IMG/VR virus record: IMGVR_UViG_3300010389_000057
Span: 1-35,065 of that record
DNA from: a virus
Length of the DNA stretch: 35,065 nt
Direction: 5' to 3' (one strand)
Shown here: piece after piece, positions 2,619 through 35,065 of the stretch
Layout of the letters: every line of letters begins with the position of its first letter
Numbering within the stretch: the stretch's first letter is position 1
Notes under the pieces: generated by a model
Told to the model about the DNA's origin: nothing
Seen by the model: the letters and a program-made list of their open reading frames with translations, nothing else
Database searches by the model: none
Translations under genes and position numbers: made by a program

Positions 2619-3902
2619 ATGGCAATGATCTTCTCAAAGTTTGGAAAACATAAAGTTGACACAAACGGCGCAATTCACCTCAATAGCCAGCGTTCACAGT
2701 CGATTGAGAATCCAAATACTTCATTTAATTCATATTTTCAGAGTTCTAGTAGTTTCGGTAGGGCGGCAAATACGGGAGATAATGTAACTTTTGATAGGGC
2801 TATGCAATTAAGCGTAGTCTTTTCTATTATACGAGTTATTTCTGAAGATTTAGCTGGTTTATCTTATTTTAATATTGAAGATAATAACGGCGAAAACTTA
2901 ATAGATAGAGATTCGTATCTAAACCGCCTTATAAGAATGCCGAGTAATGGCATATCTGGTTTCCATTTTCGAGAATCAATGGCTATGAATGTAGTCGGTC
3001 AAGGTAACGCATACGCACGAATACACTTTGATAATAGCGGACGAGTGGCAGAGCTTGAAAAGTTTGATAATTCAGATGTAAGTGTTGAAGTGACACGCAT
3101 AAATGGACGAAATCAAGTATTTTATCACATTAACGGCGAACGTATACCATTAATGGGGTATGAAGTACTTCACTATAAAGGCTTATCCACTGATGGTGTA
3201 ATCGGATTATCACCAATATCAATACTTCGGAATACAATAGGCGAAAATATAAGCGCACAAGAGTTTTCGCAAGAGTTTTATGATGGTGGCGCAAGGCTTT
3301 CGGGTGTATTGGAAGCCGACGGTACACTTTCGGATGAAGCATATCATAGGCTTATTCAAACGTGGCGTGAAAAACATGAGGGACGTAATGCGCAAAAAAC
3401 AGCTTTATTAGAGGGTGGTGTTACTTATAAGCCTATTTCATTAAGTCCAGTTGATGCTGACATATTAAAAACTAGAACTTTTGGAATTGAAGAAATAGCT
3501 CGACCGTTTAGAGTTCCTCTTCATATGATTCAGCAACTAGCAAGATCCACAAATAACAATATCGAGCATCAAGGTCTTGAATATGTAAAATACTGTTTAC
3601 GTCCATGGGCAAAGCGTTTTGAGGTCGAGGATAACATGAAACTAATTTTACCAAGAGATCAAAGCCGTAAATACTTTGAGTTTAACATGGAAAGCTTGTT
3701 AAGAGGTGACACGAACGCAAGGAGTGAATATCTTAGTAAGATGTTTAATATCGGAGTTTATTCTCAAAACGATATAAGATCAATTCTAAAAGAATCGAAA
3801 ATAGATACACCAACGGCGAACGCATATTATACACCCGTTAATTTGATGAATAGAGAAAAGGAAACTTTAAAAAGTGAAGACAAAAACACAGACGCAGCAT
3901 AA
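2619..3902 (+). CDS. Portal protein, HK97 family
   Basis: Forms the dodecameric ring at the capsid vertex through which DNA passes and to which terminase and the neck dock. The 427-residue length is normal for HK97-type portals. Family-typical segments include AMQLSVVFSIIRVISEDLA at about 62-80, the wing/stem region with VLHYKG and GLSPI, and a C-terminal clip/crown part with RTFGIEEIARPFRVPLHMI followed by NNIEHQGLEYVKYCL. The start ATG 2619 follows a promoter-like region. An alternative ATG two codons later (MIFSKFGKH) is possible. The prohead protease follows after 11 nt, the normal head-gene order. Confidence 0.95.
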   Translation: MAMIFSKFGKHKVDTNGAIHLNSQRSQSIENPNTSFNSYFQSSSSFGRAANTGDNVTFDRAMQLSVVFSIIRVISEDLAGLSYFNIEDNNGENLIDRDSYLNRLIRMPSNGISGFHFRESMAMNVVGQGNAYARIHFDNSGRVAELEKFDNSDVSVEVTRINGRNQVFYHINGERIPLMGYEVLHYKGLSTDGVIGLSPISILRNTIGENISAQEFSQEFYDGGARLSGVLEADGTLSDEAYHRLIQTWREKHEGRNAQKTALLEGGVTYKPISLSPVDADILKTRTFGIEEIARPFRVPLHMIQQLARSTNNNIEHQGLEYVKYCLRPWAKRFEVEDNMKLILPRDQSRKYFEFNMESLLRGDTNARSEYLSKMFNIGVYSQNDIRSILKESKIDTPTANAYYTPVNLMNREKETLKSEDKNTDAA

Positions 3903-6526: not shown

Positions 6527-6868
6527 GTGAAAAAGAGAAAGCGACTGACGCAAGTATTTAATATTGGTGAGTTTGACCGTAAGATACAAATTCAATCCAT
6601 CGCACAATCACAAGATGTTTACGGTGCTATGGTCGAAACGGTAACAAGCATAGAAGTATGGGCAAAGGTTAATTGGCTAAGGGATAAAGAAGATGAAAGC
6701 GGTGGAGATTTGCGAGGTAATTACAGAATTGAAGTAGTGATAAGATACCAAAGCGGGATAACAACATTAAACAAAATAGTTCACGACGGTAGAACTTTTG
6801 ATATAGAAAATTATAGGGAAATAGGACGTAGACGGTTCATAGTTTTAAATTGTTTGAGTTATGCTTGA
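6527..6868 (+). CDS. Head closure / head-tail joining protein
   Basis: Beta-barrel stopper of the Phage_H_T_join (SPP1 gp16-like) family that closes the neck after packaging. The 113 residues show the family features: IGEFDRKIQIQS at the start, VYGAMVETVTSIEVWAKV, then strands ending YRIEVVIRYQSGI, VHDGRTFDIENYREIGRRRF and a short C-terminus. The start is GTG at 6527; no nearby ATG is in frame, so this non-standard start is likely real. It overlaps the next gene by 8 nt. Confidence 0.87.
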   Translation: MKKRKRLTQVFNIGEFDRKIQIQSIAQSQDVYGAMVETVTSIEVWAKVNWLRDKEDESGGDLRGNYRIEVVIRYQSGITTLNKIVHDGRTFDIENYREIGRRRFIVLNCLSYA

Positions 6869-7400
6869 TAAACGTACGAAGTCGGATATACAAATGTTTA
6901 TAAAGGCTATTCAAAAGAGCGTTACGGAAGATGACTATGTAGATGTATTAGAAAAAGGAGCGCAATTTACAATAGACTCTATAAAAGTAAAAGTGCCTGT
7001 TTCTAAAAAGCCCGTTAAAAGGTATTTAGATAAAAAGAGTAATAGACTAAGCAATAAAGCTAAGAAGCAAGAAAAGCCCGTAGCGGTCTATTATCCAGGA
7101 AACTTACGACGTTCTATCAAGGTGCTAAAGAAATTAAACAAAAGTAAGCGGTTCAATTGGAGGATGCGTAGAGTTTGGTTCGGTGTTCACTTGCATAAGG
7201 GACAAAGTGATGGTCATTTTAGAGGAAACAGAACAGATGCTTATTATGCACATATGATTGAGTATGGAACGCAACACATAACACCCGTTGGATACTTTAG
7301 AAAAGGTCTAAATAGTGGAGCGCCTAAAAGCTTATCTGCTATGAAAAGGTTAGTAAGTGCGAAACTAAATAGGAATTATAGAAAAAACGGATTAAAGTAA
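6861..7400 (+). CDS. HK97 gp10-like neck / tail completion protein
   Basis: The 179-residue basic protein contains the pattern seen in HK97 gp10-family proteins: an N-terminal helix (FTIDSIKVKVPVSKK), a basic loop, GNLRRSIKVLKKL, and the highly typical HMIEYGTQHITPVGYFRKGL, followed by a C-terminal helix. These proteins join head and tail or complete the tail end. It is unusually rich in Lys and Arg, which may mean contact with DNA at the neck. Neighbours are head closure (upstream, 8-nt overlap) and the tail terminator (downstream, 1-nt overlap). Confidence 0.85.
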   Translation: MLDKRTKSDIQMFIKAIQKSVTEDDYVDVLEKGAQFTIDSIKVKVPVSKKPVKRYLDKKSNRLSNKAKKQEKPVAVYYPGNLRRSIKVLKKLNKSKRFNWRMRRVWFGVHLHKGQSDGHFRGNRTDAYYAHMIEYGTQHITPVGYFRKGLNSGAPKSLSAMKRLVSAKLNRNYRKNGLK

Positions 7401-7771
7401 TGGAGCAAGAACTATACACATTGTTAGCATCGACGTTAAGCCCTTATAAGGTTTATCCGTCAATCGTTCCATTAAATGCGGCTTATCCTTGTGCTAGGTT
7501 TGTTCTTATTTATGATGACTTTGAGCAAACGAAAGACACGGCTTTAAGTGGATTGGCTAGGTATCAGTTAGACTTTTATAGTCGTGATACAATAGGAGGG
7601 AATAGTGCTTTCAATGTCGCAAGGATAAACGGCGAAGCGATAAAGACGGCTTTAAATGGTCATAGTGGAACAGTGATAAGAGAAATTAGAGTTATGAACG
7701 TAGAGGACGATTATCAAGAGGAAACAGAAGCACACATTAAGAGAATAGAATTTAACGTATATCACACATAA
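7400..7771 (+). CDS. Tail terminator / completion protein (DUF3168)
   Basis: 123 residues with the layout of DUF3168/gp17-like proteins. An N-terminal helix (ELYTLLASTLSPYKVYP) is followed by AAYPCARFVLIYDDF, a central LARYQLDFYSRD strand pair, a helix (NVARINGEAIKTALNG) and a C-terminal strand EAHIKRIEFNVYHT. These proteins cap the tail tube and join it to the neck. The gene begins on the last base of the preceding stop codon (ATG/TAA overlap). Confidence 0.85.
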   Translation: MEQELYTLLASTLSPYKVYPSIVPLNAAYPCARFVLIYDDFEQTKDTALSGLARYQLDFYSRDTIGGNSAFNVARINGEAIKTALNGHSGTVIREIRVMNVEDDYQEETEAHIKRIEFNVYHT

Positions 7772-7985: not shown

Positions 7986-8384
7986 ATGCCAACACCACAA
8001 AATACTACATCGCTTCGATTTTATCAAGCGGGTACGGTTATTGCATCGGCAATAGATGCAGAGATCACTTTTAACAAAGAAGCGGTCGACATTACGACTA
8101 AAGACTCTGGAACGAATGCGGAGTTTATGAGCGGATTAAAATCTGGAACGGGTTCGACCGGTGGACTTTATGCAGAAGGTGAATTAGACGCACTTTACGC
8201 AGCTTACGACGGTACTGCGGTGGTAGTAATGAAGCTTTCAACTGAAGTAACGGGAGAGGAATATTTTAGCGGTGACGCTATCATTACTTCTTTGCAAATC
8301 AATTCTAGTGGAAATCAACAAGCGGCTACGTTTACTTGCCAATTTCAATTCACAGGAGCATTTACTAAAGATGATAACGTATAA
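7986..8384 (+). CDS. Major tail tube protein
   Basis: 132-residue protein directly before the tail chaperones and tape measure, the standard place of the tube subunit. Features fit TP901-1/HK97-type tube proteins (Phage_tail_2): SAIDAEITFNKEAVDITTKDSG near the start, GLKSGTGSTGGLYAEGELD in the middle, an EEYFSGDAIITSLQINSS segment, and an FTCQFQFTGAFTK C-terminal strand. It would polymerise around the tape measure to make the tail tube. Confidence 0.88.
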   Translation: MPTPQNTTSLRFYQAGTVIASAIDAEITFNKEAVDITTKDSGTNAEFMSGLKSGTGSTGGLYAEGELDALYAAYDGTAVVVMKLSTEVTGEEYFSGDAIITSLQINSSGNQQAATFTCQFQFTGAFTKDDNV

Positions 8385-8386
8385 TT

Positions 8387-8728
8387 ATGACAATAGAACT
8401 AAATAATAAGAACTACCCGTTTAGATGTAATATGTATGTGATTAGTAAGTTACTTCAAAAAAAGAAACTTACTAATCCAGATGAGATGCTTTCTAATCTA
8501 GGACATTTGGAGCTTGTGGAAATCTTTTATGAGTCGGTTAAAGCTGGTTGTAAAAAAGAGAATCAAGCGTTTAGAATGCAATTAGATGATTTTGGCATGG
8601 AAATAAGCGACGATTTAGGTGCTTTTGAACAATGCTTAGAAGAGTTTCAAGATAGCTTAAATAGATACACTAAGGCAATGGGTGTTGACGATGTTGATGA
8701 AAAAAACGTGGACGGGGAGAGTCTTTGA
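8387..8728 (+). CDS. Tail assembly chaperone, upstream product (gpG-like)
   Basis: 113-residue helical acidic protein located 2 nt after the tube gene. Opening segment TIELNNKNYPFRCNMYVISKL, then helices, and an acidic end (VDDVDEKNVDGESL). By position and by the frameshift signal at 8701-8736 it is the equivalent of lambda gpG, which coats the tape measure protein during tail assembly. Most ribosomes would stop at TGA 8726-8728. A minority would shift by -1 at codons 105-107 and continue into the next frame to give the longer gpGT-like fusion. Confidence 0.82.
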   Translation: MTIELNNKNYPFRCNMYVISKLLQKKKLTNPDEMLSNLGHLELVEIFYESVKAGCKKENQAFRMQLDDFGMEISDDLGAFEQCLEEFQDSLNRYTKAMGVDDVDEKNVDGESL

Positions 8729-8736
8729 CTTTCCCC
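8701..8736 (+). promoter_or_regulatory. Programmed -1 frameshift signal in the tail chaperone genes
   Basis: Seen directly: slippery heptamer A AAA AAC at 8701-8707 in the right phase (codons GAA AAA AAC). A 6-nt spacer (8708-8713) follows, then a hairpin with stem GGGGAGAGTC (8714-8723) and GACTTTCCCC (8727-8736) around a 3-nt loop. The 10-bp stem contains one G-U pair. Shifting -1 enters the frame that is open from 8701 to 9156. The upstream stop codon lies in the hairpin loop and 3' arm. This is the classic layout of a ribosomal frameshift site, at the genome position where tailed phages conserve one. Confidence 0.88.
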
Positions 8737-9156
8737 AAAATGTTAGCCTATTGCATTAGGTCGGGAATGTCGCTAAGTGACTTCTATGATGCTGAACTAT
8801 GGGAAGTTGGGGCGGTGTTAAAAACTTACTTTTTGGAAAAGGAAAAGGAATTTAGACACGGCTACGAAATTGCTAGGTTTCAAATGTCGGGAATGATTGA
8901 CACGAAGTCGATTAAGTTTCCTTGGGAATTACAAAGTAGAACCGTTGAAGATCTAAGCGAAGAAAAGAAAGCGGAAATTAAGGAGACTCAAAGAATCCTA
9001 GACACTCGGGCAAAGAATGAATATGAGGCGAAAGAGCAGCTAATCGAATTAGGTTATAGTAAACTAAAAGCGACTGATCTAATCCAAAAAGCGGCAAGTA
9101 AAACCAAACGTATAATAGAGGTTGAAGACCTCGTAAATATAGCGATAAATGGCTAA
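8725..9156 (+). CDS. Tail assembly chaperone, downstream frame (gpT-like part of G-T fusion)
   Basis: 143 codons if started at TTG 8725, but the frame is open from 8701 and is best read as the C-terminal part of a -1 frameshift fusion with the 8387 gene. The fused product would be about 258 residues (8387-9156). Segments: FPKMLAYCIRSGMSLSDFYD, helices, and a lysine-glutamate-rich C-terminus. The T part in lambda recruits tail tube subunits to the tape measure. Independent initiation at TTG is possible but unlikely. It overlaps the tape measure start by 8 nt. Confidence 0.82.
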   Translation: MTFPKMLAYCIRSGMSLSDFYDAELWEVGAVLKTYFLEKEKEFRHGYEIARFQMSGMIDTKSIKFPWELQSRTVEDLSEEKKAEIKETQRILDTRAKNEYEAKEQLIELGYSKLKATDLIQKAASKTKRIIEVEDLVNIAING

Positions 9157-11371
9157 GACGAACGAAATAAGGAGTTATTTAGGTTTAGACCTTACTAAGT
9201 TTCAAAAAGGTCTTAAAAAAGCTGAAAACAAGCTCTATCGCACAATGCGAAAGCTTGATAATATAGGGCAGTCAATGACTAGAACTATAACTGCTCCTGT
9301 TATTGCGTTTGGTGCTGCGTCAATTAAATCAGCAGCTGATATAGACAAACTTCGCAAAGGTTTAGAGGGTATAATGGGAGATAGTGCTGCAGCTGCTAAA
9401 GAGTTCAATAAGCTGCGTAAAATGGCACGAAATCCAGGTCTTGACTTGAAGAGTGCCGTTCAAGGTTCTATAAAATTACAATCAATTGGATTTAGTGCGG
9501 ACGATGCTAGAAAGTCAATGTCTAGTTTGGCTAATGCTATTGCGTTAGTTGGTGGAACGGGTGAAGATTTAGCAGGTGTAAACCTTGCGATTACTCAAAT
9601 AATCGGTAAGGGAAAAGTACAAGCGGAAGAGATAAACCAAATAGCGGAACGTTTGCCGCAAGTTCGACAAGCGATGATAAAGGCGTTTGGGTCTGCTGAT
9701 ACTGAAGTATTGCAAAAGATGCAACTTGATGCAAGGGAGTTTGTAGACGGCATCGTAAATGAGTTAGGCGAATTACCAAAAGCAAAAGCAAGTATATCGG
9801 ACAGTCTTAATAATTTGCGTGATGACTTCCAAGTTTTAGCGGCTTCGATTGGGGTTAAATTGTTCCCTATCTTTAATAAATTAATGGGTGTTGTTTTAAA
9901 GATTGTCAATGCCTTTACTAGCTTGTCAAGTGCACAACAAGATTCTTATATTAAGTGGGGTTTGATTGCTGCGGCGGCTGGGCCTGCGGCTATTGCATTA
10001 AGTCATGTCGTTGGTGTGGTTCATAAACTCACAAAAGCATTAATGACGGGGTCTTTATTAAATCCTTATGTTGCGGCTATTGCGGCAATGGCGGCGGCGG
10101 TTTACTTAGTTGTCACTAATTGGGATTTGGTAAAAGTAAAAATAGTTGAAGCGCAAAACAAGTTTGCAGAATTTTATAATTCTAGTGAGTTGTTTAGAAA
10201 CTTTACAGATTCTTTAGTAAGTGCGTTTACTATTATTTACGAGAATATCAAGATGAGCCTTAGAGGTTTAAAAGATATGTTAATGATGGCTAAAGCAGCC
10301 GCATCACTTGACTTTTCAGAGGTCGCTAACATATGGACAGAGGGAACTAAGCTAAATGAAGAGGGGTATAAGAACATAGAAGAAGCGCAAAAGAAGTTAA
10401 TAGGTGCGATGACTGGTACTAACCCATTCGAGAAAATTGAGCCTATTGATGCGAGTGATGTAGATGCGGCGGTTGCACCGTTACTTGAAAAAATAAAGTA
10501 TTTACAAGGATTAATAGCAAACTTATTAAATGGAGGTATTGGCGGCGGTTCTGGTGGTGGCGGTCGTGAGCAAGTGGCAACGGGTGGCATGAGACCGCTC
10601 GAAATGGGAAAAGTAGCAACGGGTAGATTGGATTCATTTAAAATAGTAGTCCCAGAAGTAGACCTATCTAAATATAAAGAGGGGTTAAATAGATTAGTTG
10701 ATGTTACTCATGTTACATTTGGAAAGGTAGCTAAAACGATGAAAGAAACTTTTGATGATGTATTAAGTCAAGTAAGTCAAGTTTTTGGGGCAATGTCGGG
10801 AGTTATAGACCAATTTTATGAAAACAAATATGCTAGAATAGAAAAGGATTACGAAACCTCGAAGAAGTTTATTGAGAATGGAATAATGAGCGAGGAGAAC
10901 CGTGCAACTTTGATGACTGAATTAGAAGAAGATCGAGCTAAGAAAGTTGCGGTGATAAAGCGAAAAGAAGCAAAAGCAAATAAGGCAAGGGCTATATTCG
11001 ATTCAATTCTAAATACTGCTAATGCGGTTTCGTCAGCTTTAGCGATGGGGCCAGCTGGAATACCATTAGCGGCAGTTATGGGTGCATTAGGAGCGGCACA
11101 AACAGCAATGATAGCAGCACAACCAATTCCAGCTTTGGCCAAGGGAGGTCTAGCGACTGGCCCAACTTATGCAATGGTAGGGGACAATAAAAATGCAAAA
11201 GTCGATCCAGAGGTAATAGCTCCACTAAGTAAACTAAAGGGAATGCTTAACACGGGACAAAATATAACTGTTGGCGGTGCAATAGATATACACGGCGACG
11301 CTTTACGAATGGTTCTTGAAAGAGCTGATTACGATCATACAAGAAGAACTGGATATGGCAGAGCGGTTTAG
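9149..11371 (+). CDS. Tail tape measure protein
   Basis: Sets tail length and is ejected into the host with the DNA. The 740 residues are mostly helical. The N-terminal tape-measure domain shows IGQSMTRTITAPVIAFGA and GKGKVQAEEINQIAERLPQ (TMP_3-type signature, about 150-170). Hydrophobic segments lie at about 270-330 and in the C-terminal third (ILNTANAVSSALAMGPAGI), with a Gly-rich linker near 460-475. By the usual rule of about 1.5 angstrom per residue the tail would be roughly 110 nm (inference). The last 17 nt overlap the next gene. Confidence 0.93.
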   Translation: MAKTNEIRSYLGLDLTKFQKGLKKAENKLYRTMRKLDNIGQSMTRTITAPVIAFGAASIKSAADIDKLRKGLEGIMGDSAAAAKEFNKLRKMARNPGLDLKSAVQGSIKLQSIGFSADDARKSMSSLANAIALVGGTGEDLAGVNLAITQIIGKGKVQAEEINQIAERLPQVRQAMIKAFGSADTEVLQKMQLDAREFVDGIVNELGELPKAKASISDSLNNLRDDFQVLAASIGVKLFPIFNKLMGVVLKIVNAFTSLSSAQQDSYIKWGLIAAAAGPAAIALSHVVGVVHKLTKALMTGSLLNPYVAAIAAMAAAVYLVVTNWDLVKVKIVEAQNKFAEFYNSSELFRNFTDSLVSAFTIIYENIKMSLRGLKDMLMMAKAAASLDFSEVANIWTEGTKLNEEGYKNIEEAQKKLIGAMTGTNPFEKIEPIDASDVDAAVAPLLEKIKYLQGLIANLLNGGIGGGSGGGGREQVATGGMRPLEMGKVATGRLDSFKIVVPEVDLSKYKEGLNRLVDVTHVTFGKVAKTMKETFDDVLSQVSQVFGAMSGVIDQFYENKYARIEKDYETSKKFIENGIMSEENRATLMTELEEDRAKKVAVIKRKEAKANKARAIFDSILNTANAVSSALAMGPAGIPLAAVMGALGAAQTAMIAAQPIPALAKGGLATGPTYAMVGDNKNAKVDPEVIAPLSKLKGMLNTGQNITVGGAIDIHGDALRMVLERADYDHTRRTGYGRAV

Positions 11372-25394: not shown

Positions 25395-27572
25395 TTAAAA
25401 TAAAGTAGTTTGCAATTTTTGATCCATAGCATGTTTGTGGTTCTTTACGTTCATATTAAAATAGCTTTCTTTTAATTCAATACTCACTGACTTTCTATTC
25501 ATTTTTAACGCTTGATATCCTTCGCTTCCAATACCGCCAAATGGACTAAATACAGTTTCCCCTTCATTACTGTATAGATGTATGATTCTTTCTATTGTAT
25601 CAAGTTGGAGAGGGCATATATGTTTTTCGTCATTATTATCTCTTGCAGATCTATATTGCAGCGTTCTTCCATAATCTATATCCATCCATACGGGTGATGC
25701 GTACTTTTGCCAAAGGTCAACGGGTAAATAATCTGGTTTTGTCGAGTCAACATCTTGATGCGTTATTGGTATCAAATTTTTTCCTTCGTTTCTAAAAAAT
25801 AATATGTAATCAGGTATTCCGACTCTGGACATTGAGCTATCTTTTTTTATTGTTTTATGCAAAAGTCCTAGTGATTTTGTACGCTGCATCTCTGTAACTG
25901 GATTCTTCCATATCGTAGTCCTTGCGTGGTATATGAATCCTTGATCTGTGAACATTTTCTCTATCATTCCGCTAAAGTCTCTAAGCCCTATGAAGCCCTC
26001 TTTACCCTTTTGTATAGGTAAATCCATACAATGTACGGCACATATCCTTCCTGGTTTCAAAACTCTTTTTATTTGTGGAATTAAATATGAAAAGTGATTT
26101 TTAAACATATCATAATTGCTCACATTGCCCATATCCTTTGGATTATCAGAATAAACATACAACTCAGCAAATGGAGGACTAAATACTGTTAAGTCAACAG
26201 AATTATCTTTTATTTCCTTTGATTTCTCAACACAATCACCATTCATTAATGTGTAATTTGGTTTTATTACTTTTTTAGAATCTACTTTAGACTTATACTT
26301 AGATAAAGACGTATAATCTGTTTGACTCGAATATTTACTCATTTCTGTTATCATTTCTTTGTGTTTTTTTTGCTTTTCTAGTATTGATTGTCTTACGTTT
26401 TTTTGAGATTCTGGAACTAAAATATGAACTTTTACTTTTTGAGTTTGTCCAAATCTATATGACCTCCTGACCGCTTGATAAAATTGCTCAAATTTAAAAT
26501 CATATGAAGTGAATATCATATTGTGGCAGTTTTGATAGTTCATTCCAAAAGATGCAATACTTGTTTTAGTTACCAATACTTTAAACTTATTGTTTCCAAA
26601 TCCATTCAATTTTTCGGCTTTATATTCTGCTTTATCAGAACCTTGAACATTCACACTATCATTCAATTGCTTTTTTAATTCATCTGCTTCGATATTCCTT
26701 AAAGTCCAAACTATCCAACGTTCATTAGATGAGTTTACTATTTCTGCGGTTTTTTTAATTCTTGCATCAAAAGATCGCTTTAAGTCTTTGTGTAATTCAG
26801 TAGCACTTACTGCAACATCTGCAAATAATGTATTTGTGTTATTTTCAACAGGAATAATATGTTCAATATATTCTATTTCTGGCAAATTATATCCTATTTG
26901 ATTTGGGTCAATTCTACATGGATCGTCTAAACTCATAGACCATTGACATACATATTTCCAAAAAGCATCTTTTGCGTGTTTTCTTAATCTCCATTTTTGA
27001 GTTTCACCTCCGTCATGGACAAAGAACATTGCTAACATTTCTAAATAAGACATGCCTCCTAAAAATTCAGAATGTTGTCCTAATTCCATATGATCATTTG
27101 GTGATGGAGTAGCAGTACAAGCTAATTTGTATTTAAATGTTTTGAATGTGTTTATAATCAACGATGATAGTTTTCCATCTCTACCTTTTAATATTGAACT
27201 TTCATCTAGAACTACTCCACTATAAATAGATGTATCAATGTTCTTTAGCTGATCAAAATTTGAAATGTCAATATTATTGTCATCAATATTAAATTTTTTA
27301 GCCTCTCTTTTAGTTTGTTCGACTACCGCTAAAGGTGCTAATATTAGTACTTTTTGACTAGTATGTTCTGAAACTCTATAAGCCCATTCTAATTGCATAA
27401 ATGTTTTGCCCAAACCACAATCCATAAATAACGCAAACCTACCCTTTGATAATGCTATCTTCACGGATGTTTTTTGCCAATCAAAAAGCATATTATTTAG
27501 TTCGCTAACTTGAAATCCACTAGATATATGTGTTTTCTTTTTTGACTCTATAAACTTTTCGTATTCTGTCAT
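25395..27572 (-). CDS. Helicase - DNA methyltransferase fusion
   Basis: 725 residues. The N-terminal half is an SF2/SNF2-like helicase: DCGLGKT (Walker A, 51-57), LDES (motif II, 122-125), TATP (motif III, 153-156), and QAVRRSYRFGQ (motif VI, 366-376). The C-terminal half (about 440-725) is a beta-type amino-methyltransferase: SPPF (motif IV, 465-468), DMGN, LRDFSG, IWKNP, EKHICPLQLDTIERI (motif X, about 649-662), then FSPFGGIGS (SAM-binding motif I, 675-683). SPPF in place of DPPY makes N4-cytosine or N6-adenine activity uncertain. It probably protects or marks phage DNA, with the helicase moving along or opening it. First gene of the leftward operon; the start ATG at 27572 follows a divergent promoter. 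Confidence 0.88.
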   Translation of the reverse strand: MTEYEKFIESKKKTHISSGFQVSELNNMLFDWQKTSVKIALSKGRFALFMDCGLGKTFMQLEWAYRVSEHTSQKVLILAPLAVVEQTKREAKKFNIDDNNIDISNFDQLKNIDTSIYSGVVLDESSILKGRDGKLSSLIINTFKTFKYKLACTATPSPNDHMELGQHSEFLGGMSYLEMLAMFFVHDGGETQKWRLRKHAKDAFWKYVCQWSMSLDDPCRIDPNQIGYNLPEIEYIEHIIPVENNTNTLFADVAVSATELHKDLKRSFDARIKKTAEIVNSSNERWIVWTLRNIEADELKKQLNDSVNVQGSDKAEYKAEKLNGFGNNKFKVLVTKTSIASFGMNYQNCHNMIFTSYDFKFEQFYQAVRRSYRFGQTQKVKVHILVPESQKNVRQSILEKQKKHKEMITEMSKYSSQTDYTSLSKYKSKVDSKKVIKPNYTLMNGDCVEKSKEIKDNSVDLTVFSPPFAELYVYSDNPKDMGNVSNYDMFKNHFSYLIPQIKRVLKPGRICAVHCMDLPIQKGKEGFIGLRDFSGMIEKMFTDQGFIYHARTTIWKNPVTEMQRTKSLGLLHKTIKKDSSMSRVGIPDYILFFRNEGKNLIPITHQDVDSTKPDYLPVDLWQKYASPVWMDIDYGRTLQYRSARDNNDEKHICPLQLDTIERIIHLYSNEGETVFSPFGGIGSEGYQALKMNRKSVSIELKESYFNMNVKNHKHAMDQKLQTTLF

Positions 27573-35018: not shown

Positions 35019-35065
35019 CTGTCTCTTATACACATCTGACGCTGCCGACGACTCCTTACGTGTAG
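35019..35065. other. Illumina Nextera adapter and index (contamination)
   Basis: 35019-35037 is the 19-nt transposase mosaic end (reverse complement), 35038-35051 the read 1 adapter part GACGCTGCCGACGA, 35052-35059 CTCCTTAC (reverse complement of index S505, GTAAGGAG), and 35060-35065 GTGTAG begins the P5 tail. Not biological sequence; true phage DNA ends at or before 35018. Confidence 0.97.

Follow-up and report, generated by a model that had tools for sequence, protein, structure and literature searches.

The window analysed here is the whole of the IMG/VR virus record IMGVR_UViG_3300010389_000057, 35,065 bases long with 35.6% G+C. Just upstream of its tape measure gene lie two overlapping reading frames, ORF1 and ORF2, and they raise the question of how the second is translated: as a protein of its own, or as an extension of the first. 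The initial annotation, made from the sequence of the window, had proposed that ORF2 is most simply made by frameshifting at the end of ORF1. We compared this proposal with its alternatives using the junction itself and the same junction in related viral contigs.

Gene organization and the signal at the ORF1/ORF2 junction

A tailed-phage structural module filled the left half of the record in the following order: small and large terminase, portal, prohead protease, major head protein, head closure, neck, tail terminator, major tail protein, ORF1, ORF2 and tape measure protein. The ORF1/ORF2 pair was therefore located between the major tail protein and tape measure genes (Table 1), ORF2 overlapped ORF1 in the -1 frame, and an in-phase slippery sequence was found inside the overlap, shortly before ORF1 ends. 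Neither ORF1 nor ORF2 matched the curated chaperone families of Pfam, PHROG or NCBIfam. A structure model of ORF1 (pLDDT 74) had no fold match in the PDB and gave weak matches to viral proteins, several of them named tail assembly chaperone (best named match, E 0.03); the structure model of ORF2 was of low confidence. Two other observations concern the record at large. On the minus strand, positions 25395-27572 encoded a protein of 725 aa in which helicase domains (ResIII/DEAD, Helicase_C) are joined to an N6/N4 DNA methylase domain. The last bases of the record, 35019-35065, read CTGTCTCTTATACACATCTGACGCTGCCGACGACTCCTTACGTGTAG, which we take to be an untrimmed Nextera (Tn5) sequencing adapter with its index, i.e., an assembly artefact.

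Table 1 Features at and around the ORF1/ORF2 junction of the window
Feature	Coordinates	Strand	Remarks
Major tail (tube) protein	7986..8384	+	PF06199, phrog_1407
ORF1, predicted short tail assembly chaperone (gpG-like)	8387..8728	+	113 aa; ATG start; TGA stop 8726-8728
TGA closing the -1 frame just 5' of the slip site	8698..8700	+	same place in L002
ORF2, -1 frame C-terminal domain (predicted T-like)	8701..9156	+	151 codons counted from the slip site
Slippery heptamer A_AAA_AAC	8701..8707	+	in phase with ORF1
Spacer, 6 nt	8708..8713	+	between heptamer and hairpin
Hairpin, putative stimulator	8714..8736	+	10 bp, TTT loop, -15.5 kcal/mol
TTG, gene-caller start for ORF2	8725..8727	+	coincides with the Leu/Ile codon of the [LI]-[ST]-F motif
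Tape measure protein	9149..11371	+	PF20155, TIGR02675, many PHROGs

On re-reading, the heptamer, its phase, the spacer and the hairpin of the initial annotation proved correct to the base. The run of A covers 8700-8706, with C at 8707, and the ORF1 codons at the site are GAA (8699), AAA (8702), AAC (8705) and GTG. The hairpin arms, GGGGAGAGTC (8714-8723) and GACTTTCCCC (8727-8736), enclose the loop at 8724-8726 and include one G-U pair. The -1 frame, described as shut just before the slip site and open from it, was indeed so, running open to 9156; its earliest start-like codons are TTG 8725 and ATG 8740. Stimulators of frameshifting usually begin 5-8 nt downstream of the slip site (PMC4066793), and the RNA structure started 6 nt after the heptamer in the window and 5 nt after it in the closest relative (see below). 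Curated Rfam families of frameshift elements gave no match in the window.

The plus strand of the record held 280 heptamers of the form X_XXY_YYZ, 47 of them in phase within those plus-strand genes that were checked. The 45-nt fold downstream of 8701 (counted with the overlapping register at 8700) was the strongest of all 280, at -17.0, followed by one at -15.0; among the in-phase heptamers the runner-up, at -14.2, was inside the tape measure gene. Among 35,042 windows of 23 nt per strand, on both strands, -15.5 kcal/mol was reached by the hairpin itself and by no other, and the 60-nt fold had z = -3.6, with 2 of 200 shuffles equally good. A_AAA_AAC by itself was common, with 11 copies on the plus and 15 on the minus strand. 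A second in-phase copy was located at 7382-7388, six codons before the stop of gene 6861-7400, and the -1 frame after it ran open into gene 7400-7771 (TAATG overlap); this copy presented no hairpin (fold z = +0.35) and was absent from the closest relative. It is probably incidental and acts as an internal negative control. Because an in-phase copy can thus lie near a gene end without a hairpin, the heptamer alone would prove nothing; the hairpin is the distinguishing element.

The junction in related viral contigs

DNA and protein searches for relatives covered phages, genome contigs and viral contigs. No close relative of the junction was found among phages, by DNA or by protein, nor among genome contigs, and only one viral contig carried it closely: L002 (IMGVR_UViG_3300023242_000362), about 60% identical in both proteins (62% in ORF1). 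A search with the tape measure protein added three more distant loci, L013, L014 and L015, in which the genes followed the same order. Other candidates were discarded: the sequence of L006 was too short to include the junction, and L007 ended before it; L009 was an unrelated high-GC phage matched solely by its portal protein; L016 had no recognisable ORF1/ORF2 upstream; and in L012 the ORF1 relative turned abruptly, from about position 3050, into GC-rich unrelated coding sequence, which left the junction unusable. L012 is likely a chimeric contig.

Alignment of the junction in relatives, which the initial annotation had proposed as a check, bore the signal out in L002. This contig kept GATGAAAAAAACG and the upstream TGA, and presented an identical heptamer, in phase, at 3001-3007, followed 5 nt downstream by a 9-bp stem of -15.2 kcal/mol. 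A single stem pair was altered on both sides, G8721-C8729 of the window being C3021-G3029 in L002; this paired change may be taken as suggestive only, and stem covariation in this one pair of sequences was not significant against a shuffle control.

The -1 relation of ORF2 to ORF1 was kept in all four relatives, i.e., in five of five loci with the window included. L013 had A_AAA_AAG in phase directly 5' of the ORF1 stop, in a run of only six A preceded by CCC, with a weak stem (z = -1.65); its ORF2 matched that of the window with a pairwise E of 7e-14 (32% identity over 81 residues), and the match began at L-[ST]-F. L014 had a run of eight A containing A_AAA_AAA in phase, with no notable stem. 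The initial annotation had held that relatives lacking both heptamer and stem would speak against frameshifting. L015 went part of the way in that direction, with no classic in-phase heptamer in its ORF1/ORF2 overlap (2439-2550), but it retained the -1 overlap and the conserved PLTFND motif, and L002 kept both heptamer and stem. Across the related loci, the -1 fusion arrangement was kept while the slip site changed.

The conserved part of the ORF2 family opens with [LI]-[ST]-F-[NP] (SLTFPK, SLSFPQ, PLSFND, RITFNA and PLTFND in the five loci). In L002, L014 and L015 every ATG, GTG or TTG of the ORF2 frame came after this opening, and in L013 so did the first start that follows the slip site; L014 had no such codon within the first 60 codons of the frame. 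In the window a single start-like codon, TTG 8725, coincided with the motif, as its own Leu/Ile codon. Because that position reads CTA, TTA, ATA and CTA in L002, L013, L014 and L015, respectively, TTG 8725 is very probably not a start and would simply encode the Leu of the L-[ST]-F motif. A pairwise test of amino-acid selection over the 11 codons from the slip site to ATG 8740 gave P values from 0.01 to 0.5, depending on the null.

Probable frameshifting and its alternatives

We consider it highly probable, judging from sequence, that the two genes are a tail-assembly-chaperone pair joined by programmed -1 ribosomal frameshifting, which makes a gpG-T-like chaperone. The proposal of the initial annotation that ORF2 is most simply produced in this way is supported by the position of the genes, the -1 relation in four relatives, the heptamer and stem of L002, and the lack of a TTG start in the relatives. 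Most ribosomes would read ORF1 to its TGA and yield the 113-aa chaperone. A minority would pause at the hairpin while AAA occupies the P site and AAC the A site; both tRNAs would then slip back one base in tandem, from A_AAA_AAC to AAA_AAA, and miss the ORF1 TGA. The resulting fusion would have about 256 aa, i.e., residues 1-107 of ORF1 followed by 149 residues read from 8707 (RGRGESLTFPK...). In the lambda model, it is the short protein that covers the tape measure protein, and the fusion brings in tail-tube subunits through its C-terminal domain (PMC5009743); by analogy with lambda gpG and gpG-T, the two products predicted here may act in the same manner. A point against the proposal is that A_AAA_AAC works with low efficiency in E. 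coli (PMC5009743, PMC4066793), although IS elements use this site and the present host may differ from E. coli.

The best of the alternatives, in our opinion still improbable, gives ORF2 a start of its own: ribosomes terminating at the ORF1 TGA, where stop and TTG overlap as TTGA, would reinitiate at TTG 8725 or ATG 8740 and make a separate protein. The positions would suit it, since the ATG begins 11 nt past the stop and is also present in L002. Opening the start regions at 8725 and 8740 costs 22.4 and 20.1 kcal/mol, respectively, whereas 30 other starts of the phage averaged 6.2 kcal/mol and none exceeded 13.2 kcal/mol. This burial of both starts by the hairpin is supportive of frameshifting, but not decisive, because translational coupling could melt the hairpin: a ribosome finishing ORF1 would itself open it, and a high opening energy is compatible with such coupling. 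The comparison with relatives tells more heavily against reinitiation: none of them has a start codon at the position of the TTG, in L002, L014 and L015 no usable start precedes the conserved [LI]-[ST]-F, and in L014 no start is available over 60 codons. Reinitiation would also leave the conserved heptamer and stem unexplained.

Less probable again is slippage of RNA polymerase at the run of seven A (8700-8706), which would place an extra A in some mRNAs and give nearly the same fusion. Many IS elements use transcriptional slippage (PMC5009743), and runs of A are present in the window and L002 (seven) and in L014 (eight). Seven is short for such a run, however, and L013 has the same arrangement with only six A preceded by CCC. 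Moreover, the stem is 3' of the run at the spacing of ribosomal frameshifting, whereas a nascent stem that helped the polymerase would be expected to form 5' of it. The reading that heptamer and hairpin meet by chance at an ordinary gene overlap without recoding, for which the abundance of A_AAA_AAC in the record and the apparently meaningless in-phase copy at 7382 near a gene end could be invoked, is hardly credible, since the strongest hairpin of the record follows an in-phase heptamer at the proper spacing, the signal is kept in L002 at about 60% protein identity, and frameshifting is known from this very gene pair in tailed phages.

Probable host and comparison with known systems

Ribosomal frameshifting at this junction would extend a known mechanism, without changing it, to an unstudied phage lineage. 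The window presents a clean candidate frameshift cassette from an uncultivated lineage, with proteins outside the curated chaperone families. Standard annotation would split the gene pair and assign ORF2 a probably false TTG start. The starts of the phage were AT-rich and without a Shine-Dalgarno-like sequence; because of this, and of the similarity of its tape measure protein to that of Cellulophaga phage phi39:1, a Bacteroidota host is suggested. A bolder proposal, which we regard as rather unlikely, is that A_AAA_AAC with a strong simple hairpin is truly efficient in the probable Bacteroidota host, unlike in E. coli, and that related phages have switched slip sites (A_AAA_AAG, a run of eight A, none recognisable, +1/-2) while keeping the fusion. 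If this were true, the lineage could show how frameshift cassettes get replaced.

Phage phi39:1 (NC_021804) is related through its tape measure protein, with 27% identity over its first half. Upstream of the tape measure gene it also has two ORFs, gp19 and gp20, with a poly-A run at their junction, annotated as two separate hypothetical proteins; the second is in the +1 (or -2) frame, whereas ORF2 of the window is in the -1 frame. In the segment compared (L003, NC_021804 8500-12500), gp19/gp20, at 1831-2557, appeared to form a frameshift pair (+1 or -2) at ATAAAAAAAAGAAGG that is missing from the annotation.

That -1 frameshifting is conserved in the tail chaperone genes of long-tailed phages, as a general feature, has long been known (PMC5009743, citing Xu et al. 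2004). As in lambda G/G-T (G_GGA_AAG), the window has two overlapping ORFs between the tail tube and tape measure genes, the second in the -1 frame and the slip site close to where the first one ends. It differs from lambda in its heptamer, A_AAA_AAC, in the strong simple hairpin 6 nt downstream, and in the lack of detectable sequence similarity to curated chaperone families. The initial annotation had rightly contrasted the heptamer with the GGGAAAG of lambda, but the difference is not unusual: the same heptamer has been reported at the tail chaperone junction of phiCbK-like Caulobacter phages (gp93/gp94, AAAAAAC; PMC3556154) and HCTV-2 (A_AAA_AAC; PMC5009743) and, tentatively, in Dragolir (possibly AAAAAAC; PMC6003738). 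These phages share heptamer and junction with the window but infect other hosts, and their ORFs were too diverged for a sequence match here. Tandem slippage on A-rich heptamers likewise occurs, in different genes, in IS1 (A_AAA_AAC) and E. coli dnaX (A_AAA_AAG); dnaX has a downstream stem, as the window does, whereas for the proven A_AAA_AAC cluster of IS elements no stimulator is established (PMC4066793, PMC5009743).
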